Assembly: GCF_022869805.1 (NCBI RefSeq)
Contig: NZ_CP094974.1
Location: 4,402,001 to 4,466,000, forward strand
Reading direction: 5' to 3'
DNA length: 64,000 nucleotides
Source of the DNA: Halosolutus halophilus
GTDB taxonomy: Archaea > Halobacteriota > Halobacteria > Halobacteriales > Natrialbaceae
The position numbers and the translations under genes are program-made. A model generated the notes under the pieces. The model was not told where the DNA came from, did not search any database, and worked only from the letters and a program-made list of their open reading frames with translations. Below are positions 10,502-57,313 of this stretch, one piece after another (within the stretch, counting starts at the first letter, position 1; the number at the start of each line of letters is the position of its first letter).

Positions 10502-10819
10502 TTACGCGAATCCGAAGACGCGCTGGAGTTCGCGCTCGATTTCTTCGACGTGGATCTCGAGGACCTCCTCGAACCGATCCTCTTCGACGAGAACGCCAGT
10601 GACCCGATCGTACGGGTCCTCGGGCAGTTCGACGCGGAACTCGCCGTCACCCTCGTAGAACGGTTCGCTCTCGTTTAACACCTGCTGGTCGATCGCGTGC
10701 ACGAGTTGGGAGTCGTACTGGTCGTTCATCCGGTTGAACGCGTTCTTGTACGCCTGCTGGAGTTCGGGGAAGTAGTTGGCGTACTTGTCCTCGAACTTCT
10801 CGGGATCGAAGTCGGCCAT
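10502..10819 (-). CDS. Haloarchaeal DUF5783 family protein
   Basis: 105-aa acidic protein beginning MADFDPEKFEDKYANYFPEL, with NESEPFYEGDGEFRVELPED in the middle and the C-terminus ELQRVFGFA. This pattern matches the haloarchaeal family DUF5783. No catalytic motif, signal or membrane segment is visible; the protein looks like a soluble alpha-rich cytoplasmic protein. It lies 58 bp upstream of nfu on the same strand, so the pair may be co-transcribed, but no functional link is known. Confidence 0.8.
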   Translation of the reverse strand: MADFDPEKFEDKYANYFPELQQAYKNAFNRMNDQYDSQLVHAIDQQVLNESEPFYEGDGEFRVELPEDPYDRVTGVLVEEDRFEEVLEIHVEEIERELQRVFGFA

Positions 10820-15010: not shown

Positions 15011-15898
15011 TTATTCGTGGGGTTCTCGAACGGCCGCGATCGTCTCGCGGGCCAGCGCGTCGAACGTCGCCTCCGCCGGTACCACGTCGACGTCTATCCC
15101 CCGCGACTCGGCGGTCCGCTTCGTCGGGTCGCCGATCGCGCCGACGGTCGCGCCCCGGAGGCCCGCGAGGGCCGATTCGCGGACCCCGCGCACGTCGGCG
15201 GCCTCGAGGAAGTGATCGACCGTCAGCGACGAGGTGAAACAGGCGGCGTCGAGTTCGTTCTCGGCCGCGAGTTCGGCCGACTCGCCGCTCCCCTCGGGTC
15301 GGACCAGCCGGTAGAGGATCGTCTCGTGGACGTACGCGCCCGCGCTCTCGAGTCCCTCGAGCAGGACGTCGCTGCCGTGATCGCTCCGGGCGACCTCGAT
15401 GCGGACACCGTCGACCCCGGCTCGCGGCTCCGCCGTCTGCTCGCGGTCTGACGGACCGCTCGCATGGTCCGAGGGACTCGGAGAGTCCCTCGCTACTCGA
15501 CTGTCCGCGGAACGGAGTTCCGCGCTACTCGCTCGTTCCCCGGAGCCACGCTCCGCGCTCCCGTCGAGCGCCGCGACGAGGCCGCTCGACGTGAACTCCT
15601 CGGGGACGAGATCGACCTCGTAGCCCACGTCGCGGAGGGCGTCGGCCGTCGCGGGCCCGATCGCACAGACGGTCGCGTCGCCGGGGTCCCAGCCGGCGTC
15701 GGCGGCGAGTTCCGCGCCGGTCTTGCTCGTCAAAATCACGTAGTCGGCGTCGGTCCGTGGGGCGGCGTCGGTCGGTTCGACGGCGAGCATGGGGTCCGGA
15801 ACGGGGTCCGCACCGAGTGATTCGAGCAGGTCGGCGGCGTCCGCGAGCCGATCGTCGTCGGGGCGAAAGACGGCGACCGTGGGGGTGTCGTCACTCAT
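15011..15898 (-). CDS. hemD: Uroporphyrinogen-III synthase
   Basis: 295-aa HemD, which closes hydroxymethylbilane to uroporphyrinogen III. The two-domain HemD fold is visible: VAVFRPDDDRLADAADLLESLG, YVILTSKTGAELAADAGWD, then CAIGPATADALRDVGYEVDLVP. The second half has DAACFTSSLTVDHFLEAA and GATVGAIGDPTKRTAESRG. Residues about 110-160 are an Arg/Ser/Glu-rich linker not seen in compact HemD proteins; it is encoded by three GC-rich hairpins inserted in frame (15471-15555). Last gene of the hemC-cobA-hemD operon; its ATG lies six bases after the cobA stop. Confidence 0.92.
   Translation of the reverse strand: MSDDTPTVAVFRPDDDRLADAADLLESLGADPVPDPMLAVEPTDAAPRTDADYVILTSKTGAELAADAGWDPGDATVCAIGPATADALRDVGYEVDLVPEEFTSSGLVAALDGSAERGSGERASSAELRSADSRVARDSPSPSDHASGPSDREQTAEPRAGVDGVRIEVARSDHGSDVLLEGLESAGAYVHETILYRLVRPEGSGESAELAAENELDAACFTSSLTVDHFLEAADVRGVRESALAGLRGATVGAIGDPTKRTAESRGIDVDVVPAEATFDALARETIAAVREPHE
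15471..15555. repeat. Three in-frame hairpin elements inside hemD
   Basis: Three perfect hairpins, each with a 3-nt loop. GAGGGACTC/GAGTCCCTC is at 15471-15491, CGCGGAAC/GTTCCGCG at 15506-15524, and CGGAGC/GCTCCG at 15541-15555. The first two are each followed by GCTACTCG or CTACTCG on the plus strand. They keep the hemD frame and encode a low-complexity linker. The middle one is the same 19-bp palindrome found in pspAB at 54353-54371. Confidence 0.75.
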
Positions 15899-49712: not shown

Positions 49713-50993
49713 CTACCCGAACCGGGCGTCGACGACGACGTGATCCACGCCGGCGCTGTGACTCTTGACCCGGCGGCGATCGAGCACCGTGAGGTCCCGG
49801 TCGGCGTCCTCGGCCGCCCGTTCGAGTCGCTCGATCGGCCGGTCCCAGAGCCGCGGTTCGGGCGTCGCCTCGTGGTAGTGGACGACGCCGCCCGGGCGGA
49901 GTGCGGCGAGGGCGTCGTCGAGGAACGTGTAGGCCTCGTCGTCGCGCGCGCGGTCGTCCCGTTCGTCCCGATCGCGGTCCTCCTCGTCGGGCGCGTCGGC
50001 CGCGCTCCCGTAGTACCCCATCACGACCCGATCGACCGCGAGGTCGCCGGCGAGGTCCCGGCAGTCGGTCATGTAGGCATCGACCCGATCGGCCACGTCG
50101 TTGAGCATCGCGTTCTCGACGAGATAGCGGAACGCGGTCGGATTACGTTCCGTCGCCGTCACCCGCGCGCCGGCGCGGGCCATCGGGAGCGTGAAGTAGC
50201 CGATGCCGGCGAACATGTCGAAGACGTGCTCGTCCGCCGCGACGAGGTCACCCATTCGCGCCCGTTCGGCCTGGTTGCCCGGCGAGAACATCACCGTCGC
50301 GGGGTCGAGGCCGTACCGGGTGCCGTGTTCGACGTGGACGGTCTCGGTGTCCCGCTCGCCCGCGACGTGGCGGGTCCGGGGCTCGCGGTAGGTGCCCGCC
50401 GCGCCGTCGTTCGCGATCCCCTCGTCGGCCAGCACGCTGTCGGCCTCGCCGTGCAGTTCGAGCAGCGCCTCGCCGAGGTCCTCTTCGTCGGGACAGTCCT
50501 CGGGCACCGTCACGAGAACGACGGAGCCGACGACGGCCCACGAACCCGGCGCGGCCCCGATCTCGGCCTCGCTCCAGCCTCGATCGGCGAGCAGGTCCGC
50601 CAGGTCCCGCGTCCGGGGCTCGGGATCGACCTGTCGGACGACCTCAAGTACCTGCGTCTCCGTCGGCGGCTCCGTTACCGGGAGCGCGATCCGATCGGGT
50701 CCACCCTCGCGATCCCCGCGCTCACGGGTCGCTTTGTTCTCCGTCTGCTCACGGGCCCCTTGCTCCCGTTCGCACGGTTCGCGGGACCAGAGGTCCCGCG
50801 CTATTCGCGTATCCGAGGGCTTCGCTCCGCTCACCCCTCTCACCCGCCGCGAGTCGTCGTAGACGCCCTCGTCGCGCAGCGACTCGATCGCGGTCTCCGT
50901 CCGCGATTTCTCGACGATCGCGGCCAGCGGGGCGGCGTCCGGGCCGGGGAGCGACGGTTCGAGCGACTCGCTCGCGTCGGGGTCCTCAGTCAT
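49713..50993 (-). CDS. tRNA (guanine/wyosine) methyltransferase, Trm5/Taw2-like
   Basis: 426-aa class I SAM-dependent enzyme of the Trm5/Taw2 group. Residues about 200-320 carry RTRHVAGERDTETVHVEHG, the conserved FSPGNQAERARMGDLV and motif I HVFDMFAGIGYFTLPMA, then TATERNPTAFRYLVENA. The C-terminus ends HSAGVDHVVVDARFG. Group members methylate G37 (Trm5) or transfer the aminocarboxypropyl group in wyosine synthesis (Taw2); I cannot separate them by eye. After GVYDDSRRV (residues about 45-55) there is a 40-residue Arg/Glu-rich insert encoded partly by a hairpin (50780-50800). The start overlaps the nmd3 stop by eight bases, so the two genes are coupled. Confidence 0.85.
   Translation of the reverse strand: MTEDPDASESLEPSLPGPDAAPLAAIVEKSRTETAIESLRDEGVYDDSRRVRGVSGAKPSDTRIARDLWSREPCEREQGAREQTENKATRERGDREGGPDRIALPVTEPPTETQVLEVVRQVDPEPRTRDLADLLADRGWSEAEIGAAPGSWAVVGSVVLVTVPEDCPDEEDLGEALLELHGEADSVLADEGIANDGAAGTYREPRTRHVAGERDTETVHVEHGTRYGLDPATVMFSPGNQAERARMGDLVAADEHVFDMFAGIGYFTLPMARAGARVTATERNPTAFRYLVENAMLNDVADRVDAYMTDCRDLAGDLAVDRVVMGYYGSAADAPDEEDRDRDERDDRARDDEAYTFLDDALAALRPGGVVHYHEATPEPRLWDRPIERLERAAEDADRDLTVLDRRRVKSHSAGVDHVVVDARFG
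50780..50800. repeat. In-frame hairpin element inside the Trm5/Taw2-like gene
   Basis: CGCGGGACC (50780-50788), loop AGA, and GGTCCCGCG (50792-50800) form a perfect 9-bp hairpin with a 3-nt loop. On the coding strand it is preceded by AATAG and followed by AACCGTGCGA, matching the flanks (GTAG before, GACNGT-CGA after) of the copies in hemD and pspAB. Confidence 0.7.
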
Positions 50994-53912: not shown

Positions 53913-54620
53913 ATGGGACTGCTCGACGGACTCCGTGCCGTCCTCGGGTTGCGCGCCGAGGCCGACGCGAAACGGGACGCCGACCCCGACGACCTCTTCG
54001 GGATGAGTACCGCCTACCTCACGATGGAAGCCGATCTCGGCTACGAGTCGCTCGACGTCGGGGCGCTGTGTTTCTCCGGCGTCGATTCGAGTAGCTTCCG
54101 TGACGCCGTCGACGAGGTCGAGGCTATCCTCGAGGCCGGCCAGGAGGAGACCGGAACGGAGTTCTCGGTCTCCGCGGACGACCACGGCTACCACTGGGTC
54201 GTCCTCCGGGACGAGGATCCGGAGGATCTCGTCACGAGTCTGCACTTCGCCGCGGACACGTTCATCGAGCACGGCTACGGATCGCGCCTGCTCGCGGCCG
54301 TCTTCGCCTACGAGAAAGGCGATGCCGCGATGCGGCATCGAGACGGGGGTAGCGCGGAACGGAGTTCCGCGGACCGTTCGAGCGGACAACGTCCGCGAGA
54401 AGACGGCGAAGCCGCCGACGGGAACGGTCGCGTCTACTGGATCTACTCCTTCCGCCGCGGCCGGTTCTACCCCTTCGCGCCCCGCTCCGGCCGCGAGCGC
54501 GACTCGAGCGCGGAGTTCAAACTCGAGGCGGCGCTGGACGGCGAACTCGAGATCGAACGCGAGAAGGAGTACTGGTACCCGCTGTGGCCGAGTCAGGGCG
54601 GCCGCCACCCCTGGGAGTGA
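53913..54620 (+). CDS. pspAB: PspA-associated protein PspAB
   Basis: 235-aa soluble protein of the PspAB family, linked in archaea and actinobacteria to PspA-type membrane stress and HtpX. It begins MGLLDGLRAVLGLRAEADAK, with AYLTMEADLGYESLDVGALC and GYHWVVLRDEDPEDLVTSLH. The C-terminus RVYWIYSFRRGRFYPFAPRS and EYWYPLWPSQG is conserved. Residues about 137-165 (RHRDGGSAERSSADRSSGQR) are low complexity and come from three in-frame hairpins (54321-54396). The htpX gene lies upstream on the same strand. Confidence 0.88.
   Translation: MGLLDGLRAVLGLRAEADAKRDADPDDLFGMSTAYLTMEADLGYESLDVGALCFSGVDSSSFRDAVDEVEAILEAGQEETGTEFSVSADDHGYHWVVLRDEDPEDLVTSLHFAADTFIEHGYGSRLLAAVFAYEKGDAAMRHRDGGSAERSSADRSSGQRPREDGEAADGNGRVYWIYSFRRGRFYPFAPRSGRERDSSAEFKLEAALDGELEIEREKEYWYPLWPSQGGRHPWE
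54321..54396. repeat. Three in-frame hairpin elements inside pspAB
   Basis: Perfect hairpins with 3-nt loops: GATGCCGC/GCGGCATC (54321-54339), CGCGGAAC/GTTCCGCG (54353-54371) and GCGGAC/GTCCGC (54382-54396). The middle one matches the hemD copy base for base on the plus strand, CGCGGAACGGAGTTCCGCG, in an unrelated gene 39 kb away. All keep the pspAB frame. Confidence 0.75.
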
Positions 54621-56257: not shown

Positions 56258-57289
56258 ATGGCAGACGCAGACCTCGAGACGCTCCCCGGCGTCGGACCGG
56301 CAACCGCAGACAAACTCCACGACGCAGGCTTCGACTCCTTCCAGAGCCTCGCCGTCGCCTCGCCCTCCGAACTGTCGAACACGGCCGACGTCGGCGAGTC
56401 CACCGCGGCGGACATCGTCAACGCCGCCCGCGACGCCGCCGACGTCGGCGGCTTCGAGACCGGCTCTACGGTACTGGAGCGACGAAACGAGATCGGGAAA
56501 CTGAGCTGGCACATCGACGAGGTCGACGACCTCCTCGGCGGCGGGATCGAGACCCAGTCGATCACCGAAGTCTACGGCGAGTTCGGCTCCGGCAAGTCCC
56601 AGGTCACCCACCAGATGGCCGTCAACGTCCAGCTTCCCAAGGAGGTCGGCGGCCTCCACGGCAGCGCGATGTTCATCGACAGCGAGGACACGTTCCGCCC
56701 CGAACGGATCGACGACATGGTCCGCGGGCTGCCGGACGAGGCCATCGAGGCCGCCCTCGAGGACCGCGAGATCGAGGGCTCGCCCGGCGACGAGGACGCA
56801 CTGGAGGCGCTCGTCGAGGACATGCTCGAGAAGATTCACGTGGCGAAGGCGTTCAACTCCAACCACCAGATGCTGCTCGCGGAGAAGGCCAAGGAACTCG
56901 CGGGCGAACACGAGGACGGCGAGTACCCGATTCGGCTGCTCTGTGTCGACTCGCTGACCGCCCACTTCCGCGCGGAGTACGTCGGCCGTGGCGAACTCGC
57001 CGATCGCCAGCAGAAACTCAACAAGCACCTCCACGACCTCGACAAGGTCGGCAACCTCTACAACACCGCCGTCATCGTCACGAACCAGGTCGCCTCGAAC
57101 CCCGACTCGTTCTTCGGCGACCCGACCCAGCCGATCGGTGGCAACATCCTGGGCCACAAGTCGACGTTCCGGATCTACCTCCGCAAGTCCAAGGGCGACA
57201 AGCGGATCGTCCGCCTCGTCGACGCCCCGAACCTCGCCGACGGCGAGGCCGTCATGCGCGTCCAGGACGAAGGCCTGAAGCCCGAGTAG
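56258..57289 (+). CDS. radA: DNA repair and recombination protein RadA
   Basis: 343-aa archaeal recombinase. The N-terminal helix-hairpin-helix domain has [20 protein letters not shown] (residues 6-25). The ATPase core has Walker [18 protein letters not shown] at about 102-118, Walker [18 protein letters not shown] and the L2-side motif [18 protein letters not shown]. It forms filaments on ssDNA and drives homologous pairing. ATG at 56258 follows TTTATG (56228-56233) by 25-30 bp; the start at 56231 is rejected. No intein is present. Confidence 0.97.
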
Positions 57290-57313
57290 CGTCCGCAGAA
57301 TTCAGTTTCGCGG

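Follow-up and report, generated by a model that had tools for sequence, protein, structure and literature searches.

The hemD gene, on the minus strand at positions 15011-15898 of the window (the whole 64-kb stretch of DNA that was analysed, in whose plus-strand numbering the hairpin coordinates are given), encodes a uroporphyrinogen-III synthase, and its HEM4 domain (Pfam PF02602, E 1.8e-43) is matched in two stretches of the open reading frame. Protein alignment places an inserted block of 48 codons, S113-G160 (15416-15559), between the two HemD lobes, and this block holds four hairpins on the same strand. With hairpins in square brackets and loops in lower case, the coding strand of its first half reads [CGGAGC gtg GCTCCG] gggaacgagcga GTAG [CGCGGAAC tcc GTTCCGCG] GACAGTCGA, and that of its second half GTAG [CGAGGGACTC tcc GAGTCCCTCG] GACCATGCGA [GCGGTC cgtca GACCGC] GAGCAGACGGCGGAGCCGCGAG. 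Hairpin 1 (15541-15555; CGGAGC-gtg-GCTCCG) has arms of 6 bp, hairpin 2 (15506-15524, type A; CGCGGAAC-tcc-GTTCCGCG) arms of 8 bp and hairpin 3 (15470-15492, also type A) arms of 10 bp, each with a 3-nt loop, and hairpin 4 (15443-15459, type B) has 6-bp arms around a 5-nt loop. The GTAG before hairpin 2 carries a TAG tag at 15525-15527, and GACAGTCGA follows the hairpin. Hairpin 3 is the type A hairpin of a 60-bp unit (15436-15495, minus strand), TAG-[CGAGGGACTC tcc GAGTCCCTCG]-GACCATGCGA-[GCGGTC cgtca GACCGC]-GAGCAGA, which has the layout of a wider family and scored 76.7 bits (E 5.4e-22) in a search with the covariance model R2, described below. A sequence-only reading of this DNA had counted three perfect hairpins with 3-nt loops and arms of 6-9 bp; all three are there, with arms of 6-10 bp, and hairpin 4 had been missed.

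HemD matches were obtained in 59 of the 61 genomes searched, the majority broken in two at the linker, and in an alignment of 25 HemD orthologs the 48-residue block was found in the window species only. The 24 orthologs without it include those of the congeners G001 and G002, where the sequence reads GLVAALRDEARIDGARVEV and GLVADLDDAVDGARVEV; the HemD of G030 has a different Ser/Arg/Glu-rich stretch at this position. These orthologs, together with the presence of the same element in frame in unrelated genes, bear out the earlier proposal that palindromic elements were put in frame into hemD, and they speak against the alternative named with it, an ancestral linker shared by all haloarchaeal HemD proteins. 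In an AlphaFold2 model built from the ortholog alignment, the lobes have pLDDT values mostly above 90 and the insert values of about 44-53, and the insert is thus predicted to be a disordered tether joining the lobes. The hairpins probably derive from a miniature mobile element of haloarchaea, of which they are copies and which we call the double hairpin, and the insertion in HemD is best read as tolerated and selfish, with no known benefit to the enzyme.

Perfect hairpins as such are not what distinguishes this locus. Hairpins with 3-nt loops and arms of at least 8 bp number eight in the window against 2.9 in first-order Markov shuffles, and those with arms of at least 10 bp one against none. 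Across the 0.8 Mb of the genome on which these statistics were drawn, alongside model searches that scored the best candidates only, hairpins of most loop sizes exceed the shuffles by up to about twofold, with no special excess of 3-nt loops. The CGAGTAG-like flank by itself is not significant in the window (44 against 36.9 expected) and becomes so only in combination with a hairpin. What sets the hairpins of hemD apart is that they are clustered and have tag, linker and tail in common. Plain chance is ruled out by the recurrence of the element across the class.

Anatomy, insertion sites and distribution of the element

Since a blastn search of the hemD array against its own genome (G000) returned only a few short matches, covariance models were needed, R1 built from eight copies and R2 describing both hairpins. 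The core of the element is TAG-[hairpin A, 8-10 bp]-GACCRTTCGA-[hairpin B, 5-8 bp]-GAGAAGA, and its usual length is 54 bp, or 18 codons, as given by an A of 19 nt and a B of 15 nt. The TAG is invariant in the seed alignment (A3), and the base before it varies (GTAG, ATAG, TTAG). The sequence-only reading had seen the same flanks in two other genes of the window, and both hold copies. A complete 54-bp element, TAG-[CGCGGAACggaGTTCCGCG]-GACCGTTCGA-[GCGGACaacGTCCGC]-GAGAAGA, lies at 54350-54403 on the plus strand in the PspAB gene (PF22742; R2 87.8 bits), next to a further hairpin, CGATGCCGC-gat-GCGGCATCG, at 54320-54340 on the same strand. The second copy (L170) is at 50733-50812 on the minus strand in a TYW2/Trm5-like gene, with its hairpin A at 50780-50800 (R2 67.6 bits). 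A decayed element-like sequence, CGAGTAGCGTCCGCAGAATTCAGTTTCGCG, is also seen at a gene end at 57283-57312.

The R2 search found seven copies above 45 bits in G000, all at 4.41-5.06 Mb, that is, in the last 13% of the 5.06-Mb contig, with none at 1.0-1.4 Mb. In the congener G001, unlike G000, the strong copies are spread over the main contig, and this clustering in G000 is left unexplained by a mobile double hairpin.

Two exact comparisons of empty and filled sites fix the borders of the element. The PspAB gene of the window has gained 54 bp relative to that of G002, whose protein is 90% identical: GGAGG^CGGTGGAACCGCC has become GGGGG[TAG...GAGAAGA]CGGCGAAGCCGCC. The second site is in a small haloarchaeal gene, which we take to be DUF5783, where about 50 orthologs are empty and encode EPFYEGDGEF or near variants, and carriers in several lineages and genera have exactly 54 bp more, GAGGG[TAG...GAGAACA]CGACGG, at EPFYEG^DGEF. 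In one genus, a single species of the nine sampled carries the element here and its eight congeners are empty; the copy of this gene in the window (10652-10819; G000:C1:4412652-4412819) is likewise an empty site, EPFYEGDGEF. Neither a target duplication nor terminal inverted repeats were found at these two sites. The presence of copies at one site in different genera could be due to independent insertions, gene exchange or old insertions followed by losses.

Arrays are built where a copy has entered an older hairpin or lies next to one. The insertion point in PspAB is the arm of an older hairpin, further hairpin pairs lie within hairpin B of five copies (L093, L113, L115, L121, L124), and three copies interrupt the palindromes at tnpB ends (L064, L118, L213). 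Elsewhere, copies in different genomes appear to share a position (L171/L301/L381; L341/L351; L352/L368; L342/L362), in the genes of a HerA-like protein, argininosuccinate lyase, ValRS and TrpB, and these positions appear to be either hot sites or shared old insertions.

A wider search of the genome and of haloarchaea, which the sequence-only reading had called for, found the element genome- and class-wide in unrelated genes. With R1, 35 of 37 relatives had matches at E <= 10, and the typical number was 10-39 per genome although only 150 candidates were scored in each. At E <= 1e-6, R2 had matches in 26 of 33 Halobacteria and in none of 164 other genomes of the phylum, the division into classes being our reading of the kinship information. 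A strict pattern was found in 35 stretches among 84,980 species, all in haloarchaeal records (Haloarcula, Halorientalis, Natronococcus, Natrinema, Halorubrum, Halorhabdus and others) except for one MAG labelled only Euryarchaeota. Viral contigs gave no match to two patterns, and viral spread was discarded on that ground. We found no description of the family in the open-access literature, and as far as that literature shows it was previously unrecognised; we regard it as an archaeal form of palindromic mobile element not described before.

Among the intergenic copies, one subgroup (L333, L344, L353, L356, L357, L358) has a T-rich stretch (TTTTTGC or similar) and AG[TC]CGAGCGG[GA]ACC upstream, and a tRNA-like sequence appears to lie close to one of its members, L353. 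Another subgroup (L330, L331, L334, L336, L337, L339, L340, L343, L347) has a longer tail, AGAAATCGGCTGGGGAGGGCGTGG, in common, so that in some genomes the double hairpin would belong to a larger dispersed repeat.

Host genes, reading frame and constraint on the hairpins

Host genes whose protein family was confirmed encode TrpB, the large subunit of carbamoyl-phosphate synthase, GatE (in two genomes), Dna2-like and Rad3-type helicases, ValRS, argininosuccinate lyase (ArgH), CobN, a HATPase domain protein, a Fer4/CCG protein, PspAB, TYW2 and HemD. In these hosts the element always has one orientation and nearly always encodes S-S-A-E-x-S-S-A-D-x-S-S-G-x-x-P-R-E-D, most of the confirmed proteins having been chosen by this main frame; a second, less common frame is used in part of HemD, in TYW2 and in the Fer4/CCG protein. 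The unbiased part of the sample is ten open reading frames with the element in another orientation or frame. In each of these that has a Pfam domain the element lies outside it, the exception being the Fer4/CCG protein, which has the element in plus orientation between domains; for the intergenic copies among the ten, the N-terminal extension that holds the element is spurious. Copies between genes, close to gene ends, are numerous, and for these the automatic open reading frame and GC3 calls are misleading. Insertions within genes encode a hydrophilic linker rich in Ser, Arg, Asp and Glu; the element would explain odd linkers of this composition in haloarchaeal enzymes, with consequences for annotation, for alignments and for ideas on the origin of disordered linkers.

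The arms of the hairpins stay complementary and their loops vary freely. Over 94 copies, 97.2% of paired cells pair, in an alignment that is itself structure-based and leans towards pairing, and this falls to about 34-40% when the partner is slid by one column. Cells changed on both sides number 235 against 67 in shuffles. The arm pairs comprise 1261 Watson-Crick, 7 G.U (7 of 1305) and 15 A.C pairs, the counts of unpaired cells being somewhat lowered because R2 was seeded with clean hairpins. As the arms covary almost only as Watson-Crick pairs, pairing is kept at the level of DNA. Same-site copies in the small haloarchaeal gene agree with this: at third codon positions the arms show no difference in 100 pairwise comparisons against 0.296 in the flanks, and the loops differ at about 0.45. 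Arm and loop statistics of this kind separate constraint on DNA from constraint on RNA or protein.

The same data bear on the alternative that the element is an RNA structure, such as a terminator or regulatory hairpin, or a peptide linker under selection. The abundance of intergenic copies near gene ends and the similarity of the encoded peptides would fit such a role, but there is no excess of G.U pairs, the element has no match in Rfam and thus no tie to a structured RNA family, the arms are conserved at synonymous positions where the loops vary, and the host proteins are unrelated; we consider this reading highly improbable. Equally hard to credit is that nothing moves and that template switching at quasi-palindromes creates the palindromes, and makes them perfect, where they stand. 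Perfect arms without G.U pairs would be expected from such a process, and so would orthologous hairpins in congeners that differ by compensatory changes and new loops, as for the hairpin beside the PspAB element, which in G002 is CGATACCGC-gca-GCGGTATCG, with a compensatory change and another loop. It does not account for the exact empty sites, nor for the recurrence of a single 54-bp consensus, its tag, linker and tail included, at loci that are unrelated and spread over many genera. As a sole cause it is ruled out by that shared consensus; template switching may well contribute as a maintenance process.

C-GNA-G triloops are unusually stable mini-hairpins in DNA. Of 110 hairpin A loops, 63 are GNA and 7 TNC, and the closing pair is C-G in 109; the 82 background hairpins of this genome have 10 GNA and 12 TNC loops. 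This bias, given the stability of such triloops, suggests that it is the TAG strand that functions in folded, single-stranded form. The loops of hairpin B are without strand bias (25 GNA against 24 TNC), which counts against the mobile double-hairpin model in that its GNA bias is not strand-specific.

Relation to known palindromic elements and mobilisation

Palindromic elements that keep the reading frame are known best from Rickettsia and, in the form of intragenic REPs, from other bacteria. With the double hairpin, free-living archaea have a counterpart that is abundant and for which congener pairs and exact empty and filled sites are available. The likeness to Rickettsia palindromic elements (RPEs) proposed in the sequence-only reading holds for behaviour, and for homology the tag gives no support. 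Both are small palindromic DNAs, lie in frame in many unrelated and often essential genes, add a stretch to the protein and have no known mobiliser; the haloarchaeal element is absent from orthologs (HemD, PspAB, the small gene) and dispersed with frame kept in unrelated genes. RPEs, compared here by description, are given as about 150 bp (PMC10969869), and those of R. conorii as CGTC-tagged (Di Nocera et al., PMC3733652), whereas the present element is a double hairpin of about 54 bp, tagged TAG or GTAG and confined to Halobacteria, its strict pattern occurring in haloarchaeal records only (the MAG above apart). Its tag resembles instead the other REP superfamily of that survey (PMC3733652). 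Two hairpins joined by a short linker are also found in the double-hairpin elements of Allomyces mitochondria, which have been reported to be mobile; these are alike in layout by description, and organellar.

The resemblance to GTAG-REPs raises the possibility of a true GTAG-type REP in Archaea, moved by a RAYT (REP-associated tyrosine transposase). As in bacterial REPs and REPINs, a short GC-rich hairpin has TAG or GTAG directly at its 5' foot, the target is not duplicated and some copies are intragenic, as known for REPs (PMC3733652); hairpin A alone looks like a GTAG-REP, GTAGCGCGGAACgaaGTTCCGCG being very close in layout to GGTAGCGCCGGGCCATGCCCGGCG of Stenotrophomonas maltophilia (PMC2817692). 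However, only the TAG is constant and the base before it variable, the unit is an asymmetric pair of A and B rather than an inverted REP dimer, and it occurs in Halobacteria only. No Y1/HUH IS200 transposase (PF01797) is detectable in G000, G001, G012 or G041, all of them element-rich, and genomes without Y1 have about as many elements as others. Nor is there a RAYT gene flanked by repeats: of 30 Y1 loci, one has a strong element within 1.5 kb, and that one is inside a tnpB end. A RAYT-driven REP is thus quite unlikely. The 2013 REP survey names bacterial phyla only (PMC3733652), and a recent one that includes archaea deals with intergenic sequence, with no word starting with "halo" in its main text (PMC12306157).

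Closer in host range are the PATE and SMR-A elements of Haloquadratum walsbyi, which, in the parts of their description drawn on here (PMC3119063), are transposase-free and palindromic and cause no target duplication; those parts make no mention of in-frame insertion into core genes for either. They relate PATEs to IS605 ends, with near-terminal palindromes and no inverted repeats, features that the double hairpin has throughout, and include a 52-bp terminal-only version. A minimal PATE, that is, a terminal-only IS605/TnpB derivative mobilised by the TnpA of IS200/IS605 elements, would also agree with the several copies in tnpB 3' ends. No IS605 element bounded by A and B was found, though, the copies in tnpB hold both hairpins together as an insertion, and G000 has no TnpA, which leaves this origin conceivable but doubtful. 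Kinship with SMR-A, a small mobile repeat, would account for the target habit, as SMR-A is described as inserting into near-terminal palindromes of IS605 and PATE elements (same source, same parts) and copies of the double hairpin lie inside tnpB-end palindromes and inside their own hairpin B; many others lie in ordinary genes. SMR-A is set apart there by a length of about 110 bp and prominent inverted terminal repeats, neither of which fits an element of about 54 bp without such repeats, and we consider the relationship unlikely. Its mobilisation, too, is called enigmatic in that description.

Taken together, the double hairpin is dispersed, is gained precisely and without duplication, keeps its hairpins and survives in compatible frames. 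Its subterminal hairpins at both ends, with neither inverted repeats nor target duplication, recall the chemistry of IS200/IS605, and by analogy we infer that it moves as a folded single strand, by mobilisation of a single-stranded DNA hairpin. As with IS200/IS605, RAYT/REP and PATE elements, the hairpins would be recognised in trans by an HUH-type or other hairpin-processing enzyme, and movement would be favoured at times when the DNA is single-stranded. A copy would need intact arms to be mobilised, so that the arms would be conserved, and insertions that break the frame or land in a folded core would be purged, leaving in-frame linkers in core genes. Against this model stand the four element-rich genomes with no detectable Y1 transposase and the finding that only one of the 30 Y1 loci is near a strong element. 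More tentatively, and with rather less than even confidence, the 54-nt double hairpin may be a class-wide element, often with GNA triloops, that needs no Y1-type (IS200/IS605) transposase, is moved as a folded single strand by a host or viral enzyme, and by preference inserts into hairpins that are already there. Nested arrays resembling cloverleaves would then be built, and core enzymes would steadily acquire disordered linkers of 18 residues. Several carriers are from genera that can be grown in culture (Haloarcula, Natrinema, Halorubrum, Natronococcus), so mobility is directly testable.

Two IS200-type tnpA (Y1_Tnp) genes hold a related double hairpin, GCGGAATCgaaGATTCCGC tgacctc GCGGAACaggGTTCCGC, in their coding sequence after VPK (L218, about 1470-1542; L221, about 1611-1723). 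A second double-hairpin type, CGAAAGGC..GCCTTTCG-GATGA-CGAGAGACGGC..GCCGTCTCTCG-AACCA, is seen at L113, L115, L109 and L210, at times nested in hairpin B of the first type, which suggests that haloarchaea have several double-hairpin families.
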